22,570 bases of DNA from a virus. The stretch is taken from positions 1 through 22,570 of IMG/VR virus record IMGVR_UViG_3300009160_002242, one strand, 5' to 3'. The notes below the pieces were generated by a model. That model ran no database searches. It was given only the letters and a program-made list of their open reading frames with translations, and was not told the origin of the DNA. Below are positions 1 through 22,168 of the stretch, piece after piece (position 1 is the first letter of the stretch; each line of letters begins with the position of its first letter). The translations under genes and the position numbers were made by a program.

Positions 1-1
1 A

Positions 2-490
2 AAACATAATTCCCTAAATGAGACCGTCTTAGACCTCCACGAACTACGTGGTGGATTATATAGGGAATTGAGAAAGGAACTTCCAGATGTACCAGAATGG
101 GTCTTTAATGACCTTTATTATACCACCGCCAGATTTAATCCTGAGATGATGAACCCCACCCACCCTAATTACCAATACTTTCAAGACCTTAAGAAGATGA
201 AATGGAAATTCTTTCCTAACCTTCACATTACCATGGATAAGTTGGATTCTGAGTCAAGACACAACATTGGACCTCGTATTAAGGGTGCAACCCTATTTGA
301 TGGTGATAAGGAACGTCATGAGAAACAATTGGAACTCCTTAAGTCCGGTAGTAGGAAACCATTGATTATGGCCATGAACCGTTCTGAAAAGGGCAAATTG
401 GAAATGTGGGAGGGTTGGCACAGATTAATTCAGTTATTTATTATGAACCCTGATGGATTTGATTATCCTGTCTATGTGGGTATTCGTTAA
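2..490 (+). CDS. ParB-like fold phage protein, 5' truncated
   Basis: The reading frame is open back to the window edge, so the start lies upstream; the TTG at 68 is internal. The last 40 residues hold the motif W-E-G-W-H-R (near base 410), preceded by a hydrophobic strand and an acidic/Gly turn. The gene starting at 3819 ends in the same way (E-G-W-H-R), and the upstream R...Q...L...K-P-[LI]-I pattern is also shared, so the two are probably paralogues. An [ED]-G-x-H-R signature near a strand is typical of the ParB/sulfiredoxin-like fold, which covers DNA-binding CTPases, nucleases and other enzymes. The exact role is unknown. The gene ends with TAA and a 118-bp pyrimidine-rich gap follows. 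The call of a real gene is firm; the fold assignment is inference. Confidence 0.6.
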   Translation, partial: KHNSLNETVLDLHELRGGLYRELRKELPDVPEWVFNDLYYTTARFNPEMMNPTHPNYQYFQDLKKMKWKFFPNLHITMDKLDSESRHNIGPRIKGATLFDGDKERHEKQLELLKSGSRKPLIMAMNRSEKGKLEMWEGWHRLIQLFIMNPDGFDYPVYVGIR

Positions 491-592: not shown

Positions 593-617
593 ATATTTAT
601 ATGTGTATATGAAATTA
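593..617 (+). repeat. 25-bp leader cassette repeat, copy 1
   Basis: Bases 593-617 are identical to 3269-3293. The block covers the TATTTATA element, the ATG and the first codons of two otherwise unrelated genes. The following codons of both genes also stay similar (leader peptides MKLLDIILEE and MKLQDILLEK). Confidence 0.85.
594..601 (+). promoter_or_regulatory. TATTTATA start-proximal element
   Basis: Exact TATTTATA, 7 bases before the ATG at 609, within a 25-base block repeated exactly at 3269-3293. Proposed phage promoter core (-10 like). The short distance would give a leaderless or nearly leaderless mRNA. Inferred from recurrence in this window. Confidence 0.5.
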
Positions 618-2363
618 TTAGATATTATATTGGAAGAAGAAAACACATCATTGGATGAAGGTTATAATGTGGTAACAAAGGAAGGTTTTTTAAATAAGAT
701 AAAAGAACTTTTTCCATATAAAGGAGGTTGTCTTTATGACTTTCCTAATTTAGAAGATTTTAGAAAAATAGCAACTGTAAATGCTCATTGTAATAAACAT
801 AACATTGATTTTCCTGTAAAGGCTGAAAATATCTCAAAAGGTAATATTGGTTCAGAAGGATGTGTTGAATGTAAAAAAGATAGAATCTTAAATAAAAGAA
901 ATTCAGAAGTAAATAATTATTATAGTAAGGCTGAGGAAATATGGAAAGATGAAAATGGAAATCCTTTATATATCTACAATAAATCGGGTTTAAGAAGATA
1001 TACAGGTATTAAAAATGAATTTGATTTTTATTGTCCTAAACTTGGTTCAAATAAAAAACCTCACGGTAAACAAACTATTACAAATCCAGCAAGTCATATA
1101 TATCGAGACTATAGATATGATAACTACCCATATGTTGGTTGTGAAAAATGTAGAGAAGAACAAGGAATAGTTAGACAATCATTGAGTAATCTTTCTCGTA
1201 GTGAATTCATTAAAAAAGTCAAAGAAAAGATGAAATTATACCATATCCCAATAAGTTGGTATGATTGGAAAAATATGGAATATGAAACCCCATTAAAAAA
1301 TGGTAAAATAAAATGTGTAAAACATAATCAAGAAATTTCAAGGGAAAAAGCTCAAACTTTTTATACTGGTACACCTTTGTGTCCCGAATGTAATAGAATA
1401 GCGGTTAAAGAAAAAAAATTCATGGATAAAGTCCGCAAACTCTATAATGATAGATTTGTTTTATTATCGGATTATATTGGAGGAACTTCGCCCGTTACAC
1501 TTGGTTGTACATTACACGGAAAAACCCCATATCCAATTGTATTTGCGAGCCCCTCATTAATTGGGAGTTCTACCAAAAAATACGGATCAATTGAATGTAA
1601 AGAATGTAAAAGAGTTAACCAACTAAATAAATTTAAAAATACAACTTATAATTTAAATAATGAAAGATTTAAAGATGAAAATGAAAAACCATATTCTTAT
1701 CCAAATCTTGATAGTGAATTTAAAAGAATGACCGATGATATTCAAATTGTATGTCACAAAATAGGTTCAAATGGTAGAGAGCATGGAATATTTCTACAAA
1801 CTCCCTCTAACCATTCTGCAGGACAAGGTTGCCCAATATGTCAAGAATCAAAAAATCAAATTCACATTAAAAATTTATTATCTGAAGAAGATTACGAATT
1901 TGAAACAGAAAAACAATTCAAAGAATTAGGTAATCAAAAGTTTGATTTTTATATACCTGAACCAGGATATGTTAATATCCTTATTGAATATGATGGTGAA
2001 CAACATTTTGAACCTAGGTTTGCTAAATCAGAATACACCAGGCAATTAAATTATAATATACTATATGAAAGTGATAATTTAAAAAACCAATTTATTAAAA
2101 CTAATAATCTTGGTTTGGGATTGATTCGTGTACCTTATACTTTGAAAAAGGGAACATATGATAAATTATTATTAGATGCATTAAAAAGTGTTGAAGCTAG
2201 GGAAATAAGACGTTTAGGTGATTATCCAGAAAGACAATTACCTAAAGAGGCTGTACATAAAGATAAAGTTGATTTAACTAAACCAATTCGTAGACCAATA
2301 CGAACGAACGAATCCAAATTATCGTTAATTGACACGGTAAACCAATTATATAACGATAAGTAG
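609..2363 (+). CDS. Zinc-ribbon repeat nuclease with N-terminal leader peptide
   Basis: A 584-aa protein if it starts at ATG 609. The frame extends to a TTG at 549, but that would bury the promoter-like element and the MKLLDIILEE leader shared with other genes. After the leader come about five treble-clef or zinc-ribbon-like units with paired C-x2-C and C-x-K-H / G-C motifs, spread over residues ~40-430 (for example GCVEC, GCEKC, LCPEC, ECKEC, GCPIC). The C-terminal domain (~445-530) has D446 in FDFY, then E460-Y-D-G-E-Q-H-F and a closing LIRVPY strand. This is the catalytic pattern of PD-(D/E)XK/VSR-like nucleases often found in phage homing endonucleases with zinc ribbons. It could be a free-standing homing nuclease or, given the leader, a virion-packaged nuclease that attacks host or competitor DNA. 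The basic tail after residue 530 has no recognised domain. Confidence 0.7.
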   Translation: MKLLDIILEEENTSLDEGYNVVTKEGFLNKIKELFPYKGGCLYDFPNLEDFRKIATVNAHCNKHNIDFPVKAENISKGNIGSEGCVECKKDRILNKRNSEVNNYYSKAEEIWKDENGNPLYIYNKSGLRRYTGIKNEFDFYCPKLGSNKKPHGKQTITNPASHIYRDYRYDNYPYVGCEKCREEQGIVRQSLSNLSRSEFIKKVKEKMKLYHIPISWYDWKNMEYETPLKNGKIKCVKHNQEISREKAQTFYTGTPLCPECNRIAVKEKKFMDKVRKLYNDRFVLLSDYIGGTSPVTLGCTLHGKTPYPIVFASPSLIGSSTKKYGSIECKECKRVNQLNKFKNTTYNLNNERFKDENEKPYSYPNLDSEFKRMTDDIQIVCHKIGSNGREHGIFLQTPSNHSAGQGCPICQESKNQIHIKNLLSEEDYEFETEKQFKELGNQKFDFYIPEPGYVNILIEYDGEQHFEPRFAKSEYTRQLNYNILYESDNLKNQFIKTNNLGLGLIRVPYTLKKGTYDKLLLDALKSVEAREIRRLGDYPERQLPKEAVHKDKVDLTKPIRRPIRTNESKLSLIDTVNQLYNDK

Positions 2364-2364
2364 A

Positions 2365-2372
2365 TATTTATA
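2365..2372 (+). promoter_or_regulatory. TATTTATA element, distal copy
   Basis: First of two exact TATTTATA copies between the nuclease stop and the ATG at 2398; 25 bases from the start codon. Two copies in tandem before one gene is unique in this window. Confidence 0.4.
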
Positions 2373-2383
2373 ATAAACACAGA

Positions 2384-2391
2384 TATTTATA
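2384..2391 (+). promoter_or_regulatory. TATTTATA element, proximal copy
   Basis: Exact TATTTATA, 6 bases before the ATG at 2398. Same geometry as at 594, 3270 and 9618. Confidence 0.5.
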
Positions 2392-2397
2392 TAACAT

Positions 2398-3060
2398 ATG
2401 AAAAGAATTATCAAATTAACAGAAGAACAATTAAGAAATATTGTTTCTAAAGTCATTAAAGAACAATCGGCACCAATGGGTAACCCTAATCAAATTACAC
2501 CACAAAAAAGTCCAAACATAAGTTGTATCGGTTTAAAATCACCTCAAACATACAAAGTGATTAAAGGGATTAATGGAGAAGAGTTTACATTTTTCAACAA
2601 CGGTAGATTTAAAGATGTGAGTGACGACAGTATGGGATTTTATGTATGTGGAGCTCAGGCTAATATCGTTAACTTAACCTACGATTCTAACCCAAAGGCC
2701 GTTAAATATTTCAACATGACCCCCCCACCAGTTGCAAAACCAAAAGTAAAATATGTTCCTAATGAGGTTGTACCACTTAAATTTGGTCAATCAGGAAACA
2801 ATATTAAAATGATACAGGCTTCTCTTGGAGTTAAACCTGATGGTTTATTTTACACAAATACTGATGCTGCAGTTAAAAAGTATATTCCTGAATACAATAG
2901 ACAAACAGGAGTTACCCAACAAATATTTGACAAGATATTGGGAGTTGTAGCAAAAAGAACACCAGTATCTCCAGTTAGTATGAAGGATATGCAAAATATG
3001 AATAATCCCGACACCGCATTAAGTAATAAAATATTGGGTAAAAACCAATTCAATTCATAA
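2398..3060 (+). CDS. Leader-peptide protein with PG-binding-like C-terminal domain
   Basis: A 220-aa protein. It opens with MKRIIKLTEEQLRNIVSKVI, a charged amphipathic leader of the T-E-x-Q-[LIV] type seen on other genes here, followed by K-E-Q. A Pro/Asn-rich linker follows. Residues ~40-105 form a small domain with aromatic residues and one Cys pair. Residues ~125-182 (LKFGQSG, IKMIQASLGVKPDGLFYTNT, AAVKKY) match the pattern of a PG_binding_1 domain and parallel the N-terminus of the endolysin at 12863. The tail is Asn/Met-rich. It is probably a virion-associated cell-wall-binding protein, though phages also use this fold for other purposes. Start set by the TATTTATA element 6 bases upstream. 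Confidence 0.6.
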   Translation: MKRIIKLTEEQLRNIVSKVIKEQSAPMGNPNQITPQKSPNISCIGLKSPQTYKVIKGINGEEFTFFNNGRFKDVSDDSMGFYVCGAQANIVNLTYDSNPKAVKYFNMTPPPVAKPKVKYVPNEVVPLKFGQSGNNIKMIQASLGVKPDGLFYTNTDAAVKKYIPEYNRQTGVTQQIFDKILGVVAKRTPVSPVSMKDMQNMNNPDTALSNKILGKNQFNS

Positions 3061-3065
3061 TTAAC

Positions 3066-3185
3066 ATGGGAACAGCAGCACCAAAAAAACGAGCAATGAG
3101 AAGTGTCAAGTCTGGAGTTAAAACTTTTAAAAGAACATCCAAGAACACTGAAATAATTAATCGTTTGATGAGAGAACTTAAATAA
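3066..3185 (+). CDS. 39-aa highly basic protein
   Basis: ATG at 3066, five bases after the previous stop, opens a 39-aa frame ending in TAA. About a third of the residues are Lys or Arg (PKKRAMRS, KTFKRTSK), with two acidic residues near the C-terminus. Likely translated with the upstream gene. It could be a small nucleic-acid-binding or DNA-condensing protein; no family is recognised. It is followed at once by three hairpins, the last a terminator, which supports a real operon end here. Confidence 0.55.
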   Translation: MGTAAPKKRAMRSVKSGVKTFKRTSKNTEIINRLMRELK

Positions 3186-3232
3186 AGGTACCGAAAGTAC
3201 CTCTTAGGACCGGAATGGTTAACGTTCCGTTG
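3186..3232 (+). ncRNA. Two hairpins before the terminator; possible structured RNA
   Basis: AGGTAC (3186-3191) pairs with GTACCT (3197-3202) around CGAAA, and CGGAAT (3211-3216) pairs with GTTCCG (3224-3229, one G-U) around GGTTAAC. With the terminator stem at 3233-3257 this gives three consecutive hairpins in 80 bases. This may be a stabilised 3' UTR or a small RNA. It is not a tRNA: no cloverleaf or T-arm can be drawn. Confidence 0.35.
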
Positions 3233-3265
3233 GGATATGAATTCGCTACTCATATCCTTTTTTTT
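3233..3265 (+). terminator. Rho-independent terminator
   Basis: Perfect 8-bp stem GGATATGA / TCATATCC (3233-3240, 3250-3257) with a 9-base loop, followed by eight T residues. It closes the unit ending with the small basic gene. The next gene has its own TATTTATA element right behind. Confidence 0.85.
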
Positions 3266-3268
3266 GTT

Positions 3269-3293
3269 ATATTTATATGTGTATATGAAATTA
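3269..3293 (+). repeat. 25-bp leader cassette repeat, copy 2
   Basis: Identical to 593-617; spans the promoter-like element, start codon and first three codons of the next gene. Confidence 0.85.
3270..3277 (+). promoter_or_regulatory. TATTTATA element
   Basis: Exact TATTTATA, 7 bases before ATG 3285 and 4 bases after the T-run of the terminator. A promoter here is logically required for the downstream gene, which supports promoter function for the motif. Confidence 0.55.
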
Positions 3294-3806
3294 CAAGATA
3301 TATTATTGGAAAAGTTAAGAGATATGGTATCAATACCTATCTATCATCATACAACTGAAGAACGTGCTTTGGGTATTATGAATGGTAATATGTTGGTAGG
3401 GTCAAAACAATATGAGGAGGTTATGAATTTGGATAGAACATTAAAACAATCCAAACATAAAACAATGGTTTCATTTACTCGTGATAAGAACTTTATACCG
3501 GATGGGTCTATTGGTAATTCTGGTGACGGTCCTCGTATTAAACCTGATATGTTGAACGTAATCTTCGTTGCAGACAGAAGTCGTCTTAAATCACGTTATA
3601 GGGTGGTTCCTTTTGATTATGGGACAATTGCTAATAAAGCTTGGATGGACCCTGTTCCACGTAGTCGTAAAAACCCTGAAGTAGAGGAAAGAGTATTGAC
3701 GGATAGAATATATCCATTGAGACAATACCTTACAAATATCATTTATACAGGTCAAGATCCTGAGGTACAAAAGAAGATAGATGAATATCTATCTGGAATT
3801 AAGTAA
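3285..3806 (+). CDS. Putative ADP-ribosyltransferase-like protein with leader peptide
   Basis: A 173-aa protein from ATG 3285. An in-frame ATG at 3237 lies inside the terminator hairpin and would precede the shared leader, so it is rejected. Residues 1-10 (MKLQDILLEK) are the leader. The body has Y20-H-H-T-T followed by a helix and 'GNML', a strand-like S63-F-T-R-D, a hydrophobic strand NVIFVAD, and E134-E-R-V-L. A Y-H-x-T start, an S-F-[ST]-R strand and a late E-E-R are the layout of several ART-fold phage proteins. If correct, the enzyme would use NAD+ to modify a host protein or nucleic acid. T4 Alt is a virion-packaged ART, which would fit the leader. Catalytic assignment is inference from motif order; a non-enzymatic role is possible. 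Confidence 0.5.
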   Translation: MKLQDILLEKLRDMVSIPIYHHTTEERALGIMNGNMLVGSKQYEEVMNLDRTLKQSKHKTMVSFTRDKNFIPDGSIGNSGDGPRIKPDMLNVIFVADRSRLKSRYRVVPFDYGTIANKAWMDPVPRSRKNPEVEERVLTDRIYPLRQYLTNIIYTGQDPEVQKKIDEYLSGIK

Positions 3807-3823
3807 TATTTATATCTAATGAA
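3804..3823 (+). repeat. 20-bp leader cassette repeat, type 2, copy 1
   Basis: Identical to 4341-4360, including the previous stop codon, the TATTTATA element and the ATG. Identity resumes in phase at 3832-3846 / 4369-4383, the bases coding for the T-E-S-Q leader. Confidence 0.85.
3807..3814 (+). promoter_or_regulatory. TATTTATA element
   Basis: Exact TATTTATA, starting directly after the previous TAA and 4 bases before ATG 3819. Part of a 20-base block (3804-3823) repeated at 4341-4360. Confidence 0.5.
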
Positions 3824-4343
3824 TATCCTCATAACAGAATCACAATATAAACTTATCACCGAAACTCGCCATGGGTTATTAAACTATTTGGTTAGAAAAA
3901 GTAAGGAATATACGGGGGTATTGTGGCCTGAATATGTTATTAGGGATTGGATGTATAAAAATACAAAGGAAGTGGGTCCTGATAATAATGTATATAAAAA
4001 ACTTGGCCAAACATATTTTGATAATTGGATTCAAAGATTTGGTAAAGGGTATTGGGAATTTAGAGTGTTGGATGTTTCAATAGATATTTTCATTGATGGA
4101 GATCAACAAGGATTAAAGAGTAAAATTGGTGGTAGTATTAATCAACAAGTACCTAACGATTCTGAAAGACATAATACACAACAATCCAAACTTGATACAA
4201 ATGGAATCTCTTCTGAACCTATTATTGTTTATTTAACAAAAGATGGTAAATACGATTTGGTTGAGGGGTGGCACAGAACGACAGCATCACTTAAGAAATA
4301 TGATAGATATAAACAGAATGCTTGGGTCTACATTAATTTTTAA
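3819..4343 (+). CDS. Leader-peptide protein with ParB-like C-terminal motif
   Basis: A 174-aa protein opening with MNILITESQYKLITE, a clear member of the T-E-S-Q leader group, with an I-T-E site at its end. The middle is aromatic-rich (YWEFRVLDVSIDIFIDGD) and contains an SERHNTQQSKL stretch with R and Q residues. The C-terminus has PIIVYL, then D-L-V-E149-G-W-H152-R153, matching the E-G-W-H-R of the gene at the left edge. This suggests a ParB/sulfiredoxin-like fold. Whether it binds DNA, cuts it or hydrolyses nucleotides cannot be told. Its promoter-like element abuts the previous stop codon, so it may have its own transcript. Confidence 0.6.
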   Translation: MNILITESQYKLITETRHGLLNYLVRKSKEYTGVLWPEYVIRDWMYKNTKEVGPDNNVYKKLGQTYFDNWIQRFGKGYWEFRVLDVSIDIFIDGDQQGLKSKIGGSINQQVPNDSERHNTQQSKLDTNGISSEPIIVYLTKDGKYDLVEGWHRTTASLKKYDRYKQNAWVYINF

Positions 4344-4360
4344 TATTTATATCTAATGAA
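4341..4360 (+). repeat. 20-bp leader cassette repeat, type 2, copy 2
   Basis: Identical to 3804-3823 and in the same relation to the next gene's stop, promoter-like element and start. Confidence 0.85.
4344..4351 (+). promoter_or_regulatory. TATTTATA element
   Basis: Exact TATTTATA, directly after the previous stop and 4 bases before ATG 4356. Confidence 0.5.
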
Positions 4361-5228
4361 GCTTCAGGTAACAGAATCACAATTAAAACTTATTGAACAA
4401 CAACAGTTAAATGAACTGAAGTGGATGGGTAATATTCAATCACATATTGATAGATTGGATATACCTTTAACTTCATCTATTGTAAACTACATATGGGGAA
4501 AACAAAGAGTAACAACATTTCATATAGGGGATGTTCATAGTATCAATAAGATTGCTAAAATGGTAGGTACAAGAAAGGCATTATCTACATTTAGATATAT
4601 GAATAAAAAGATGGTTAATGGAATTAAGGGAATACAAACTAGTGGAGGTATTATATTTCAAATTGAAGGAGATTTACAATTTGAAGCTCCTGGTGATATT
4701 ATGAGTACACCCGACGATTCGGGTAGAAGGTGGATTACTTTACATACATTACCAGATAAAATTAGAAATGAATATTATAAAGAATTTAAAGGACACAATG
4801 AATTTAATAATATAAACGAACCTAAAACCCTAATCAACTATTACAGATGGGTTGATAATTTTATTGAAGAACGTGCGAAAGAAATACGTGAATATTATTC
4901 AGATTTTAAAATACATAGAGAAGGTCTTTGGAATGAAACGGTTGTAAACAATATCCAAATTAAGGATATATTATGGAAAGAAGATATTGTGGGATTTTTA
5001 AATACATGGGAAACCGAAGAACAAAAAATAAAAGTACTTGAAGAAGTTGGTATAAAGTTAAGTTCAATATCAACGGGTACCGTTTATTTATCTGATGGTG
5101 GAAGTACATTTGGATTTAGAGATATTGACCCCGTTAGATGGGTCGAGAAAAGAGGAGGATTAACTGACTTTAAGAAATACGTAAATAAATTTCACAAAGA
5201 AAAAGAACCAAAAACAATATCCATATAA
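4356..5228 (+). CDS. Leader-peptide protein of unknown function
   Basis: A 290-aa protein with a leader MKLQVTESQLKLIEQQ of the T-E-S-Q type (L-I-E at residues 12-14). No family is recognised with confidence. Visible features are a stretch with small and basic residues (KMVGTRKALSTFRYM), a Gly/Ile-rich hairpin (GGIIFQIEGDLQFEAPGD), and the motif STPDDSGRRWITLH, whose D-D-S-G-R-R could be a catalytic or phosphate-binding loop. A second half of ~130 residues is charged and helical with conserved-looking Trp. The gene is single, followed by an A/T-rich gap, and carries the type-2 leader cassette. Confidence 0.55.
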   Translation: MKLQVTESQLKLIEQQQLNELKWMGNIQSHIDRLDIPLTSSIVNYIWGKQRVTTFHIGDVHSINKIAKMVGTRKALSTFRYMNKKMVNGIKGIQTSGGIIFQIEGDLQFEAPGDIMSTPDDSGRRWITLHTLPDKIRNEYYKEFKGHNEFNNINEPKTLINYYRWVDNFIEERAKEIREYYSDFKIHREGLWNETVVNNIQIKDILWKEDIVGFLNTWETEEQKIKVLEEVGIKLSSISTGTVYLSDGGSTFGFRDIDPVRWVEKRGGLTDFKKYVNKFHKEKEPKTISI

Positions 5229-9364: not shown

Positions 9365-9372
9365 TATTTATA
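9365..9372 (+). promoter_or_regulatory. TATTTATA element
   Basis: Exact TATTTATA 13 bases before ATG 9386, in the divergent gap with the sugar kinase. Confidence 0.5.
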
Positions 9373-9385
9373 TAAAAACAAAGCG

Positions 9386-9550
9386 ATGACTAAGAAACTT
9401 AAAATCACAGAATCACAACTTAAAATGTTGGTTGAAAACAACAAAAAGACAGTTCAAGTGGAAAATGTGGTAGAACCTAAAAAAGAGGAATTACCTCAAG
9501 TAAACGAAGCAGTAGAGAAGATAAAGAGTGAGTTCAAGAGATACTTGTAA
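9386..9550 (+). CDS. 54-aa leader-peptide protein
   Basis: ATG 9386 opens a 54-aa frame ending in TAA: a leader MTKKLKITESQLKMLVE of the T-E-S-Q group, followed by only ~37 charged residues (Lys/Glu/Val-rich, helical, ending FKRYL). It is the shortest carrier of the leader, almost the leader plus a short helix. It has its own TATTTATA element upstream and its own terminator downstream, so it is a single-gene unit. T4 internal proteins are also small and charged, which makes it a good candidate for an internal or packaged protein. Confidence 0.7.
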   Translation: MTKKLKITESQLKMLVENNKKTVQVENVVEPKKEELPQVNEAVEKIKSEFKRYL

Positions 9551-9617: not shown

Positions 9618-9625
9618 TATTTATA
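9618..9625 (+). promoter_or_regulatory. TATTTATA element
   Basis: Exact TATTTATA 5 bases before ATG 9631 and 16 bases after a strong terminator, so transcription of the next gene must restart here. Confidence 0.55.
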
Positions 9626-9630
9626 TAGAT

Positions 9631-11484
9631 ATGAAGATTTTAGAAGTTTTATTGGAGGAATTATTACTTGAGTTAAGTGGTAAAGAGATATATCAAAAAT
9701 ATTACTCAAAAATACCATATGAGACTTTTTTAGATATTGTAATGGCCGACCCTAAGACCAATATTGATGGTACGGGTGAATTATTATCATTAGGAAAATA
9801 TGCTAAAATGTTATTGTCTTTTTATCAAAAAGGAACATTAAGAGATGACGATTTAGTAAAGGCCGAAGAATACTTAGGTTATGTGTATCTACATAACGTT
9901 GCAGTGGAAGTTGGTAAAATAAGACAACTTGGTGACTTATACAATATTGTTAAACAATATATTATTGAGGATACGTTAGATTTTAAATTGATATTAGATT
10001 CGTTGATTTTAGGTACCGATTATAAATTATTACACACTGGTGAAGATTGGACATTTTACCAACCATTGACTGAGAAGGGTTCGGCTTATTTAGGTGTTAA
10101 CACAGAGTGGTGTACCACTTGGGGGGAATATTGTTTGAATAAAAAATACAGAGATAGAACAAATTATTTTCCATCACACAATACTAAAGGACCTTTATTT
10201 ATTATAATTAATAAAACCAATCCATTAGATAAATATCAATTCCATTTTGAGACAAATCAATATATGAATAAGGATGATAAGAGAATTAACTTAACTGAAT
10301 TTTGGTTTGGTAAAGATGAGATTAAATATTATTTCTTTCCGTCATTAGTTAGAGAAACATCGGAACAAGAAGTAAAAAGTGAAATTGCAAGAATATCTAT
10401 TTTACCAGATGAAGATGGAATGGAGGTAATTAAAAAATCAATAGGCACTATTGACAATCCATTAGTGGTAGCAATTTTAAATTTGGATAATGATGCGTTA
10501 GAAGATTTAATTAATGATGACACTAGAAATGGTTCTGTGGATGTATATAATGGAAGATTAGTAATACAAGTTGATGATATTAATATTGGTGAAGCCGCTG
10601 GTGTTAACTACAGTATTAACCAATATAGAGGTGAAGCTAGTAATGGTTGGGAATGGGTACATAATGATTTGGAAAACAAATATTATGAACAAGAAGAGTA
10701 TTCTTCAGATATTGAGGGAATTTTTACAAATTATTATAATGAGAATAAAAATGAATTGTTAAATGAATTAGGGGTTCAAAGTATTGAGGAATTTACTAGT
10801 GATTATTTTCCGAATTATTCATCAAATGAAGAACTAAAAGATTATTTTGTTGATGATGTAACCGATTTAAGTTATAGAAGTTATGAAGAGGAAAATGATA
10901 GGGAAGCGGATGATATTGAAAAATATTTATCCTTCGGTAATGATGATGAATTTAATTTTTCTGTAGTTCATTTAGTTCGTTTTTTAATCAAAAAAGAAAT
11001 TAAATATATTGGGGGAGATGAATGGCCACTACAAGATTTTTTAGATAGTTATATAAGTCAATATAATATAACCACAGAAATAGACGAGCCAGTTTATAAT
11101 TTTGAAATAAAATATCCAAAATACGGTGACAATAATTATATAACAAGAGAAACTAAAAAGTATTTTGATAAAATAATATCTGACCCAAATACAAGTCGTC
11201 ATTGTATTGAACTTAGAAAAAAATTAAACAACATTATTGATAAATTTTTTATTGGTACTGGTGGACAACAAGATAGATTTGAGAATGAACATGTGATTGT
11301 GAGAATTAAATCTATGTCAATTGATTGTGATAACGAATCAATTAAAATTGATTATGAGAACAAAGATAATAAACAAAATTTTTATAACAAATCAGTAAAA
11401 ATAGATAATTTAGTTTCATACTTAACTAATCATCAATTGAATTTGAATGAAAATAAATTAAAGTTAATGTCTTTTATAAAATGA
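9631..11484 (+). CDS. Large 'WCT' domain protein with leader peptide
   Basis: A 617-aa protein opening with MKILEVLLEELLLEL, the aliphatic leader type (L-L-E, L-E-L). Residues ~130-215 form a domain I call WCT: D139-W-T-F-Y-Q-P-L-T, then L-G-V-N-T-E-W160-C-T-T, GPLFIIINK, and YQFHFETNQYM. This arrangement occurs in many phage proteins of unknown activity; the conserved W-C-T and F-H-F suggest an enzyme. The - strand gene at 13734 has a related domain. The rest (~220-617) is very acidic and helical, without recognised domains. The next gene overlaps by ATGA, so they are translationally coupled. Confidence 0.65.
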   Translation: MKILEVLLEELLLELSGKEIYQKYYSKIPYETFLDIVMADPKTNIDGTGELLSLGKYAKMLLSFYQKGTLRDDDLVKAEEYLGYVYLHNVAVEVGKIRQLGDLYNIVKQYIIEDTLDFKLILDSLILGTDYKLLHTGEDWTFYQPLTEKGSAYLGVNTEWCTTWGEYCLNKKYRDRTNYFPSHNTKGPLFIIINKTNPLDKYQFHFETNQYMNKDDKRINLTEFWFGKDEIKYYFFPSLVRETSEQEVKSEIARISILPDEDGMEVIKKSIGTIDNPLVVAILNLDNDALEDLINDDTRNGSVDVYNGRLVIQVDDINIGEAAGVNYSINQYRGEASNGWEWVHNDLENKYYEQEEYSSDIEGIFTNYYNENKNELLNELGVQSIEEFTSDYFPNYSSNEELKDYFVDDVTDLSYRSYEEENDREADDIEKYLSFGNDDEFNFSVVHLVRFLIKKEIKYIGGDEWPLQDFLDSYISQYNITTEIDEPVYNFEIKYPKYGDNNYITRETKKYFDKIISDPNTSRHCIELRKKLNNIIDKFFIGTGGQQDRFENEHVIVRIKSMSIDCDNESIKIDYENKDNKQNFYNKSVKIDNLVSYLTNHQLNLNENKLKLMSFIK

Positions 11485-12862: not shown

Positions 12863-13705
12863 ATGTTATTAAAATTAGGATCAGAAGGAGAAGATGTAAA
12901 AAAATTACAAAATAAGTTAGGGGTCGACCCTATAGGTAAGTTCGGACCTAAGACCGAGGCTGCGGTAAAAGATTGGCAATCTAAACATGGTTTAGGTGCT
13001 GATGGTATTGTGGGAGATGGAACATGGTCTAAAATGTTCTCTGAAGGAACTGTAAGCGCTCCTACAGTAATTACTGAACCTGCACCCGTTAAGAGTATCG
13101 GTGGATTAAAATTAGAGAAGTTAAAGGGACATATACCTGACGCTGTTATTGCTCAGATTCCTGATACTGCAGCTAAATTTGAAATTAATACTCCATTACG
13201 TTTGGCTCATTTCTTGGCTCAATGTGGTCATGAAAGTGGTGGATTTAGATTAACTAAAGAAAATCTAAACTATTCAGCTAAAGGTTTGAATGGAACGTTT
13301 AAGAAGTATTTCCCTACCGAAGCGGCCGCGAAACCTTATGAGAGACAACCTGCAAAAATTGCTAATAAGGTTTATGGGGGTAGAATGGGTAATGGTCCAG
13401 AATCAAGTGGTGAAGGGTCTAAGTTCTGTGGTCGCGGTTACATTCAATTAACGGGAAAAGATAACTACACAGCATTCGGTAAATCAATCAATGAGGACAT
13501 GACCGCAAATCCCGATAAGGTAGCTTCGGATTATGCGTTATTATCGGCCGCTTGGTTCTTTAGTAAGAATGGACTACATAAAATGGCGGATGGTGGGGCA
13601 ACTGATACGGTTGTAACATCTATAACTAAACGAGTTAATGGTGGGACAATTGGTTTACCTGACCGTATAAAACACTTTAAAGAATACTATTCATTACTAT
13701 CATAA
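12863..13705 (+). CDS. Endolysin: PG-binding domain + GH19-like lysozyme
   Basis: A 280-aa protein. Residues 1-60 (LKLGSEGEDVKKLQNKLG, DG..G..T) form a PG_binding_1 domain. After a Pro-rich linker, residues ~90-280 form a chitinase-19/lysozyme-like catalytic domain: H123-E124-S-G-G-F holds the general acid Glu, and GRGYIQLTGKDNY (191-203) is the family signature. It cleaves the glycan backbone of peptidoglycan at lysis. No signal peptide is present, so a holin is needed; none is clear next to it, but the membrane protein at 16302 is a weak candidate. The frame reaches back to a TTG at 12824; ATG 12863 is chosen because the PG-binding domain starts directly there. Confidence 0.9.
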   Translation: MLLKLGSEGEDVKKLQNKLGVDPIGKFGPKTEAAVKDWQSKHGLGADGIVGDGTWSKMFSEGTVSAPTVITEPAPVKSIGGLKLEKLKGHIPDAVIAQIPDTAAKFEINTPLRLAHFLAQCGHESGGFRLTKENLNYSAKGLNGTFKKYFPTEAAAKPYERQPAKIANKVYGGRMGNGPESSGEGSKFCGRGYIQLTGKDNYTAFGKSINEDMTANPDKVASDYALLSAAWFFSKNGLHKMADGGATDTVVTSITKRVNGGTIGLPDRIKHFKEYYSLLS

Positions 13706-13733: not shown

Positions 13734-15443
13734 TTAATTCATTTCTTTAATATCTACATCCGTTTCAGGGTCAAAATCACTAATTCTTACACTATCGTCT
13801 TCGTCATTTTCATCCTTAGGTTGTATTTTAGTTTTTAACATTTCAAATTTTGCCGCGGTAACAAAGTGACCACTTGCATTATCATTCTCTTCGATTGGAA
13901 ATACACAGTATAAACTTGTATTATCTGGATTACCACCTGTTGTGTATGTCTCAACAATGTAAGTTTTACCTTCATTGTCATTATATAAATCAGTTCCCAT
14001 TTGAACATAGTTAGGTTCAAAAACTATACTATCTTGTTTAACCCACGATGCTTTGTCGTTATAATATAAACCAAATTTTTTCGTTTTTTTACTTTCGTAT
14101 AAAACTAAATTTTTGTTATCTATACTAACTCTAGCAACTATAAACTCATTCGACATTAAATGTTCATAGATATAACCGACTCCAACATCTCCCAATTTTT
14201 GATTAACAGCAGCACCTCTTTCATCTAATCTTAAACCTAAAGACCTAAGTGTGTTATCTAATAACTTAAATTCATTACCAACTTTTCTAATTTCACTCAT
14301 CAACTCATATGATTGATATTTGTCAATCACATTTCTTGCCGTTGTTGAAATAATATATAATGTTCTAAGATCAGTATCCATTCGTTGCCAAGACTTTGCA
14401 GTTGAAATATTCCCACCTCTATCGATGTAAGCTTTTTTCAAATCTCTTCTAACCATTGCAAATTCTAATTTATTTCCTGGTGTTTCATTAAGTCTATTAA
14501 CAATGTCCCTATCAAATAACTCACTCTCATCGTATTTTATATATTTGAATAAATCTCTATGTTCAGCAAGTTGTGGGTAAATTTGAGTAACTTCTTCCCA
14601 TGTTTTAGGTTCATCACCATCATTTAACATACTGGTCATTTTAAACCCAGTATATGGATTACTTCTATAGTCTTTATCTCTTTCACAATATTGTAGTGCA
14701 CATAAATAATATTTATGAACATTAGGATTTGGATTATCTATAGGATTTTTAGATTCATCAATAACAAACCAAAACGTTCTTACTGGTCTATATGTCCCCC
14801 ATAAATTACCACGAGAATCATTAGTATTTCTACCTGTTACACACCATTGTGCTCCACCTAATTTTTTTGTTGTTGATTGTTGATAAAATCCGTATTTAAT
14901 TGCTTCTCTAGCGTCAGAAACATAATGTACTTTAAATCCTTCTTCATTGACCACACTATTACGTTCACTTAACCATAATTTATATGATGCTTTAATTTTC
15001 TCAGGTGTGGAATCTAATTTACCTTTGAATTCATCTTCTTCATCATTACCATTTAAGGTTGCATCTCTAAATTCGTCAAGTAAATCTTCAAATTGTTCTA
15101 AAGTATAACGACCTGGGTCTTTAACGTCATCAAAATTAAACGGAACCAATTTGAACATAGGTTGTCCGTTATTTTGTTTTTGCACCCCATTATTGTCCAA
15201 ATCTGGTACCTTAACACCTAAACCATGTACACCATCCCAACGATGTAGGAACGAAAGAACACCAGGATTGTTTAATGTTAACCCTTTTTGCTTTTCAAAA
15301 AATAACTGTAAATTCTCTTCCGCTCTTTTAATTTGTTGAGGGGTTGGTTCATCACCATACCATTTTTTTAATAGGAAAGCAAATTGCTTCTTATTTTTTA
15401 CTTCCTCAACTAGTACGTCGTACACTAAATCGGTAATATTCAT
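13734..15443 (-). CDS. Second 'WCT' domain protein with leader-like N-terminus
   Basis: A 569-aa protein. The N-terminus MNITDLVYDVLVEEV has the hydrophobic/acidic pattern of the aliphatic leader (L-V-E at 11-13), though less closely. Residues ~165-270 carry the WCT domain in diverged form: FKVHYVSDAREAIKYG, L-G-G-A-Q-W200-C-V-T, then FWFVIDESKNP and YYLCALQYCER. In the protein at 9631 the corresponding elements are W-C-T-T, FIIINK and YQFHFE. Long flanking regions have no recognised domain; the last ~60 residues are acidic. Start ATG 15443 is preceded by TATTTATG, a one-mismatch element. It is probably a paralogue in function of the 9631 protein. Confidence 0.62.
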   Translation of the reverse strand: MNITDLVYDVLVEEVKNKKQFAFLLKKWYGDEPTPQQIKRAEENLQLFFEKQKGLTLNNPGVLSFLHRWDGVHGLGVKVPDLDNNGVQKQNNGQPMFKLVPFNFDDVKDPGRYTLEQFEDLLDEFRDATLNGNDEEDEFKGKLDSTPEKIKASYKLWLSERNSVVNEEGFKVHYVSDAREAIKYGFYQQSTTKKLGGAQWCVTGRNTNDSRGNLWGTYRPVRTFWFVIDESKNPIDNPNPNVHKYYLCALQYCERDKDYRSNPYTGFKMTSMLNDGDEPKTWEEVTQIYPQLAEHRDLFKYIKYDESELFDRDIVNRLNETPGNKLEFAMVRRDLKKAYIDRGGNISTAKSWQRMDTDLRTLYIISTTARNVIDKYQSYELMSEIRKVGNEFKLLDNTLRSLGLRLDERGAAVNQKLGDVGVGYIYEHLMSNEFIVARVSIDNKNLVLYESKKTKKFGLYYNDKASWVKQDSIVFEPNYVQMGTDLYNDNEGKTYIVETYTTGGNPDNTSLYCVFPIEENDNASGHFVTAAKFEMLKTKIQPKDENDEDDSVRISDFDPETDVDIKEMN

Positions 15444-20917: not shown

Positions 20918-22168
20918 ATGGGAAATGGAAAGATTTTTATTCAAATTGCATCATATAGAGACCCTCAATTGGTACCGACAATCAAAGATTGTATTGAGAA
21001 GGCTAAAAACCCCAAAAAATTGGTATTTTCCGTCGCTTGGCAACACTCAACGGAGGATTTGTGGGATAATTTAGATGAATTTAAGGACGATAAGAGATTT
21101 AAAGTTGTTGATATTGACTATAAGGAGTCAAAAGGAGCTTGTTGGGCTAGAAATCAATTACAACAGAATTACAAAGACGAAGAATACACGTTACAGTTGG
21201 ATTCACATCATAGATTTGCCGAAAATTGGGACGAGGAGTGTATTGTAATGGTAAATCAACTCCAAAAGAAAGGACATAAGAAACCTTTGTTAACGGGGTA
21301 TATATCATCTTTTGATCCTGATAATGACCCAAGTGGTAGAATACAACAACCATGGAAAATGAACTTTGATAGGTTTATACCCGAAGGTGCGGTGTTCTTT
21401 TTACCTGCAACTATTGATGATTATAAGGAAAGAACTGAACCGTTGCCGGCCAGATTCTATTCGGCACATTTTTGCTTCACTTTAGGTTCGTTTGTTAAAG
21501 AAGTTCCACATGATCCTGAATATTATTTTCACGGGGAAGAAATTTCAATTGCGGTAAGGGCATATACTTGGGGTTATGATTTATTTCATCCACATAAAAT
21601 CATTGCTTGGCATGAATATACTAGAAAGGGTAGAAAAAAACAATGGGATGATGACCCTAAATGGGTAACTAAAAATGTAAATTGTCATTTACGAAATAGA
21701 AAGTTATTTGAGATGGATGGGTTAGTTAAAGATATTGATTTTGGAATTTATGATTTTGGTACTGAAAGAACATTAGAAGATTATGAAAGATATGCTGGTT
21801 TATCATTTAAAAAGAGGGCTGTGCAACAATATACAATAGATAATAATTATGCACCAAATCCACCATTATATGGTGAAGATTTTGATAAATCATTCTTAAA
21901 GATATTTAAACATTGTATAGATATTGGTTTTGATAAAATACCATTAACTGACTATGAATTTTTTGTTGTCGCATTTCATGATGAAATGGATGAAACTATT
22001 TTTAGAAAAGATGCCGATGTCAATGAAGTTAAAAATATTAAAAACGATAGTGAAGGGTATGGTAAAATTTGGAGAGAATTCCAAACAGATAAAAAACCAA
22101 AGTATTGGGTTGTGTGGCCTTATAGTGCAACTAATGGTTGGTGTGAAAGGATAACTGGAGATTTATAA
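20918..22168 (+). CDS. GT60-type glycosyltransferase (GNT family)
   Basis: A 416-aa protein. IFIQIASYRDPQLVPTI (6-22) is the nucleotide-sugar-binding start. G-A-C-W-A-R (73-78) and TLQLDSHHRF (91-100) follow; D95-S-H97 is the DxD-like metal site of GT60/GlcNAc-transferase-type enzymes. HGEEISIAVRAYTWGYDLFHP is the acceptor/catalytic segment with paired Glu. Known relatives transfer GlcNAc to hydroxyl groups of protein. The C-terminal ~130 residues are an additional domain without a recognised family. It may glycosylate a virion protein or a host envelope protein. Confidence 0.87.
   Translation: MGNGKIFIQIASYRDPQLVPTIKDCIEKAKNPKKLVFSVAWQHSTEDLWDNLDEFKDDKRFKVVDIDYKESKGACWARNQLQQNYKDEEYTLQLDSHHRFAENWDEECIVMVNQLQKKGHKKPLLTGYISSFDPDNDPSGRIQQPWKMNFDRFIPEGAVFFLPATIDDYKERTEPLPARFYSAHFCFTLGSFVKEVPHDPEYYFHGEEISIAVRAYTWGYDLFHPHKIIAWHEYTRKGRKKQWDDDPKWVTKNVNCHLRNRKLFEMDGLVKDIDFGIYDFGTERTLEDYERYAGLSFKKRAVQQYTIDNNYAPNPPLYGEDFDKSFLKIFKHCIDIGFDKIPLTDYEFFVVAFHDEMDETIFRKDADVNEVKNIKNDSEGYGKIWREFQTDKKPKYWVVWPYSATNGWCERITGDL

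Follow-up and report, generated by a model that had tools for sequence, protein, structure and literature searches.

The window analysed here is an entire IMG/VR record of 22,570 bases with a G+C content of 30%, in which several genes open in the same manner, with the octamer TATTTATA, a short spacer, the ATG and a short N-terminal leader (together, the cassette). Fourteen related contigs, retrieved by means of the 20-mer TATTTATATGTGTATATGAA from the original prediction, were compared with the window over their complete sequences; they include G002, a contig of 335 kb. The exact 20-mer occurs in 15 stretches of the related contigs, each time ahead of an ATG. The features of the window are as follows.

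594 to 608, plus strand: octamer TATTTATA (594-601) and the 7-nt spacer TGTGTAT before the ATG at 609, a cassette type typical of nuclease family F0
609 to 2363, plus strand: HNH/homing-endonuclease-like protein of 584 aa, leader MKLLDIILEE (609-638)
2384 to 3060, plus strand: octamer, spacer and a gene with leader MKRIIKLTEEQLRNIVSKVIKEQ, 220 aa
3232 to 3265, plus strand: terminator-like hairpin and T-run upstream of gene X, conserved in G001 and G014 by alignment
3270 to 3284, plus strand: octamer and spacer TGTGTAT of X
3285 to 3806, plus strand: gene X, 173 aa, leader MKLQDILLEK, with orthologues in nine related contigs
3804 to 3823, plus strand: left copy of a direct repeat (stop, octamer, spacer TCTA, ATGAA)
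3819 to 4343, plus strand: gene Y, 174 aa, leader MNILITESQYKLITE; the inserted unit measures 537 bp
4341 to 4360, plus strand: right copy of the direct repeat
4356 to 5228, plus strand: gene Z, 290 aa, with leader MKLQVTESQLKLIEQQQLNEL; its DNA is invariant in the leader and diverged in the body
9365 to 9550, plus strand: octamer and a 54-aa protein with leader MTKKLKITESQLKMLVEN
9618 to 11484, plus strand: octamer and a 617-aa protein (start at 9631) with leader MKILEVLLEE
13734 to 15443, minus strand: 569-aa protein with leader MNITDLVYDVLVEE, preceded by the octamer variant TATTTATG

The gene at 609 matches the HNH endonuclease family phrog_559 (E 6.6e-34) and Y gives a weak ParB-like match. 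No Pfam or PHROG match was found for the 617-aa and 569-aa leader proteins, and Pfam and PADLOC searches returned nothing significant for the cargo genes tested. An AlphaFold model of X was discarded as unusable (pLDDT 40). The truncated first gene of the window (1-490) and Y are distant paralogues of family F24 with a GWHR motif as in ParB-like domains, and these paralogues bear different leaders in the relatives.

The phages belong to a giant T4-like family, and their leader genes are accessory genes clustered in a variable island. G002 possesses a T4-type head module with a major head protein (phrog_138), a large terminase and a head protease (phrog_207, E 2e-38) encoded in a part of the genome that lies outside the window. 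The isolates nearest by head protein (35-41% identity) include Flavobacterium phage immuto and Rhodothermus phage RM378.

Within 34 nt of the 403 gene starts of G002 the octamer TATTTATA was found 60 times in sense and 5 times in antisense orientation; it is a sense-strand gene-start motif. The antisense count was substituted for the reversed octamer ATATTTAT, which was dropped as an unsuitable control because GATATTTATA contains it. The octamer is probably best read as a late-type promoter element, and it precedes leader genes as well as genes without a leader that we take to be structural. Its distance to the ATG is bimodal, either 2-7 or about 10-20 nt. Mostly it ends 2-7 nt before the ATG, as at 609, 2398, 3285, 3819, 4356 and 9631 in the window and throughout G002; were it a -10 element, the late transcripts of these genes would have little or no untranslated 5' leader. 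No clear enrichment of the octamer-ATG arrangement was seen in phage immuto or in the uncultured 484-kb phage LR756508, both of which have related head proteins.

The original prediction had singled out two pairs of gene starts in the window as conserved at the DNA level, and its identities hold base for base: 593-617 equals 3269-3293 (25/25), 3804-3823 equals 4341-4360 (20/20, including the upstream TAA) and 3832-3846 equals 4369-4383 (15/15, in phase). When extended, the match reaches 43 nt at 91% identity in the first pair (609/3285) and 53 nt at 85% in the second (3819/4356). The bodies are indeed unrelated, as BLASTP within each pair (609 with 3285, 3819 with 4356) aligned the leader only, besides one short alignment with E = 0.11. 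Anchored at the ATG, DNA identity in the two pairs amounts to 0.85 and 0.80 from -20 to -1 and to 0.80 and 0.73 from +1 to +30, drops to 0.23 and 0.40 from +31 to +60, and further into the bodies stays at the background level of about 0.3.

When the window was simulated 100 times with an order-3 Markov model, the longest exact repeat measured 14-21 nt (median about 15-16), compared with the 25 observed. A stricter null holds TATTTATA, the two peptides and the lengths of the two spacers constant, while codons and spacer bases are sampled from other genes with leaders. Under this null a run at least as long as that observed has p = 0.00045 for 609/3285 and p = 0.0010 for 3819/4356, values which apply per pair and precede correction for the roughly 55 pairs possible, so that the window alone is suggestive and short of decisive. 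The decision on recombination rests on the relatives.

In seven of these (G002, G003, G004, G007, G010, G011 and G012) X and Z are adjacent, with one octamer-start repeat between them and 12 bp from the end of X to the start of Z, across TATTTATATCTA or, in G003 and G007, TATTTATATTTA. In the window, Y sits between X and Z with the 20-bp TAATATTTATATCTAATGAA on either side, while G001 has the order X-W-Y-Z, with an extra gene W ahead of Y. Gene number, order and identity vary at this locus among the relatives (X-Z, X-Y-Z, X-W-Y-Z), and promoter-containing direct repeats of 20 or 47 bp flank the variable gene on both sides. The 47-bp promoter-start-leader segments before W and Y in G001 differ by a single base, W having C and Y having T. 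The window's Y carries the C, i.e. the W variant, ahead of a Y body; its 5' end therefore matches that of W and its body that of Y, which makes it a hybrid formed within the leader. The hybrid means either that W was lost or that W was gained in the other line, and the direction of change at the locus, insertion or later deletion, can be suggested by parsimony only. In G014 yet another gene (L102, record position 20922-21590), presumably pirin-like judging from its sequence, lies between X and Y with neither octamer nor leader of its own; this insertion bypassed the cassette. Recombination at the 5' end, as originally proposed, is thus borne out by the three arrangements and their junction repeats of 20-47 bp, but it is not a general rule.

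A sharp drop in synonymous identity just after the leader had likewise been anticipated, and it is present in Z. Codons 2-22 of the Z leader are identical in 21 of 21 positions between the window and its distant relatives G002, G011 and G007, whereas the body reaches about 62% synonymous identity. With G002 and G011 the match at the start of Z is exact over 84 nt (15 upstream and 69 downstream), and identity drops at codon 24. By family, leader and body synonymous identities are 0.95 and 0.63 in F8 (Z), 0.92 and 0.54 in F32, and 0.91 and 0.77 in F0, whereas F1 (0.57 and 0.66), F7 (X; 0.70 and 0.84) and F24 (0.33 and 0.59) display no leader excess. The hyperconserved synonymous sites in the Z, F32 and F0 leaders could also reflect a constraint on the start region itself, by which translation initiation, RNA structure or protein binding would conserve the leader DNA as such, and a slight 5' excess exists in non-promoter genes too (0.70 vs 0.65). 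Such a constraint does not account for the families F1, F7 and F24 or for the spacers, which differ between most genes of one genome, and RNA structure from the octamer to +60 was rejected as a cause since nothing was found there beyond shuffles. We regard this explanation as quite improbable.

The likeness of spacers is a local matter. For non-homologous leader genes of the same genome, identical spacers were found in 10 of the 96 pairs lying no more than 3 kb apart and in none of the 447 more distant pairs (p = 2e-8, with pairs from related contigs not being independent), and a permutation of positions within each genome, pooled, gave p = 0.0002 for this locality. The latter was substituted for a within-genome permutation of equal-length spacers of leader genes, which was underpowered (p = 0.08). 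Codon identity at matching residues lies above expectation only within 1.2 kb (68 vs 52.9) and beyond that distance slightly below codon-usage expectation; what is conserved across the leaders as a whole is therefore the peptide, and their DNA identity is local. Leaders alike in protein and never in DNA, the case that the original prediction had set against itself, turn out to be the majority, as the distant spacers illustrate, and it is the neighbouring genes for which its DNA-level claim stands.

These figures bear on the view that each gene independently keeps its promoter and its targeting peptide, the AT-rich codon bias merely mimicking a likeness in DNA and 5' recombination being superfluous. 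Distant leader pairs conform to it, as their peptides agree while codon identity does not exceed expectation; so do the octamers ahead of putative structural genes without leaders, and ACA, GAA, TCA and CAA are common codons. Yet convergence of this kind leaves unexplained that identical non-coding spacers are confined to neighbours, that empty and filled sites exist together with a hybrid leader, and that the 84-nt run in Z breaks off at codon 24. It appears unlikely overall, and for the island genes it is already disfavoured.

Deduplicated insertions between contigs were surveyed further, the direct repeat being scored at the empty site. Junctions that span TATTTATA gene starts carry a repeat of at least 15 bp in 11 of 12 cases, against 10 of 46 away from gene starts (p = 1.5e-5), where independent events are few, perhaps six, the contigs being related and some near-identical, and where not all 12 join unrelated genes, since in several of the cassette events the neighbours are paralogous F0 nucleases. 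For the remaining genes, such a repeat is present at 16 of 48 junctions located at or near a start. Because other junction classes show repeats too, above all the oppositely oriented gene starts described next, repeat-mediated gene exchange is not specific to leader genes. At 20-25 bp, a junction repeat is a short substrate for general recombination.

Longer repeats, of 50-80 bp, at the starts of mainly oppositely oriented genes also occupy gene-gain junctions (L065 in G002, 13571-13652 and 14783-14863; L108 in G013, 1974-2051; L082 in G011, 14589-14636). Some contain TAnnTTTG, as in Bacteroidetes promoters, and they are perhaps an early-gene counterpart of the cassette.

Promoter, leader and body do not always travel together. 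Starting at the ATG, the DNA of the X orthologues agrees with that of the window (91-94% in the body), but several unrelated sequences lie upstream among the relatives, with the break at the ATG; here the promoter has changed while leader and body stayed together. The spacer TGTGTAT belongs to the window's X only (1 of 10 X genes, the nine relatives having other upstream sequence), and two bases of its leader, in GAT and GAA, are unique among the ten X genes and match the resident 609 leader. Conversion of the X leader from 609 would fit this, short of proof. Synonymous identity of X between lineages is 0.80-0.82, compared with about 0.55-0.75 for most other genes compared and about 0.6 for typical neighbours, which suggests that X alone was recently exchanged. 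The original prediction had genes acquire expression and targeting together, and this holds at best in part, as X keeps its leader behind unrelated promoters and the Y body shares 52% identity with a protein of G002 that has an unrelated leader, the homology starting at ITE in one and INE in the other. Both leader types occur within nuclease family F0. As a general and indivisible unit the cassette must be given up, in view of the replaced promoter of X and the pirin-like insertion in G014.

The common parts of these genes are short: 609 and X have residues 1-10 in common and no body homology, W and Y residues 1-15 alone, up to the same ITE/INE motif. Tandem duplication would produce such genes if the bodies then diverged very rapidly and only a constrained 5' end stayed alike, and the F0 nuclease genes are in fact adjacent paralogues with the same cassette. 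W, Y and Z, however, differ in length and have no detectable body homology, and the homology of the Y body to a gene with another leader argues that the bodies have separate histories. We hold duplication to be highly improbable.

At least two leader types occur here, MKxxDIIxE and ITESQLKxI; a literature search for the ITESQ motif yielded nothing relevant. The motif L/I/M-x-E, a class that includes M besides L and I, is found within residues 5-24 in 40 of 83 promoter genes and in 67 of 320 others (p = 2.5e-6), body controls giving 20-23%. The T4 protease gp21 cleaves after L/I-X-E, and targeting in T4 needs no more than the first 10 residues of IPIII (PMC9026906); the T4 internal proteins, encoded at a variable locus, have the leader alone in common (PMC12373910). 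The motif excess, the head protease and these T4 precedents together make capsid targeting of the window's leader proteins likely. By this analogy the leaders are most probably T4-type capsid-targeting propeptides, cut after L/I-x-E by a gp21-type head protease.

Taken together, we consider it probable that repeats of promoter, start codon and capsid-targeting leader recombine with one another and in doing so add or delete genes and swap promoters or leaders. The shared 5' DNA would comprise the TATTTATA promoter (probably late), the start codon and the short N-terminal leader, and near-identical stretches of 20-50 bp at neighbouring genes would offer a substrate for homologous recombination or gene conversion. 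Because neighbours carry such stretches, whole genes could be gained or lost and a promoter or leader occasionally swapped, and new cargo genes would arrive already expressed and addressed. More tentatively, and with some doubt on our part, the promoter-start-leader DNA may act as a standing gene-capture site, where recombination inside the leader-coding part would time and again place new bodies behind a ready-made late promoter and capsid tag; the injected cargo would then evolve through the exchange of units bounded by the head-protease site. The intermediate states (empty, one-gene, two-gene, hybrid leader) make the recombination mechanism testable from sequence alone. If the leaders are capsid-targeting tags, octamer plus leader would constitute a search key for dozens of candidate injected effectors or anti-defence proteins.

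The closest precedent, now 30 years old, is found in the internal-protein (IP) loci of T-even phages. At these loci promoter-containing repeats reportedly flank the genes and are said to have been proposed to mediate shuffling, and the small genes, reportedly unrelated, have the packaging leader alone in common while their number and identity vary. The present locus resembles them in its unrelated ORFs with a common short N-terminal leader, its variable gene content and its flanking promoter repeats. Unlike in the T-even loci, the repeat here is the putative late-type octamer TATTTATA, which abuts the ATG and runs into leader-coding DNA, there is more than one leader type, and the phages, related to the 335-kb genome, are far from T-evens in sequence.

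The PeSL cassettes of T4-type phages (Arbiol 2010; Comeau 2014; cited in PMC4503421) are similar in so far as repeated regulatory sequences lying between genes reportedly provide the homology for modular shuffling. By contrast, the Y, Z and 609 junctions have no consistent stem-loop with early promoter, their structure being nowhere beyond shuffles (z -0.42 to 0.31), and the common tract here includes coding sequence. Among the junctions folded, hairpins occur only upstream of X (3232-3265, z -1.7, unflagged by a simple terminator scan) and of 9631 (z -3.3). The T4 CTS/gp21 system (PMC9026906, PMC3012670) likewise places an N-terminal tag of 10-20 residues, ending in L/I-X-E, on unrelated proteins, and a gp21-type protease is encoded in the relative G002; the peptides here are different ones (MKxxDIIxE, ITESQLKxI), and their packaging and cleavage are predicted from sequence. 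We class the phenomenon as a variant of the T-even internal-protein locus rather than as a new kind of system; with it, the shuffling model developed for T-even internal proteins reaches a distant lineage of giant phages.
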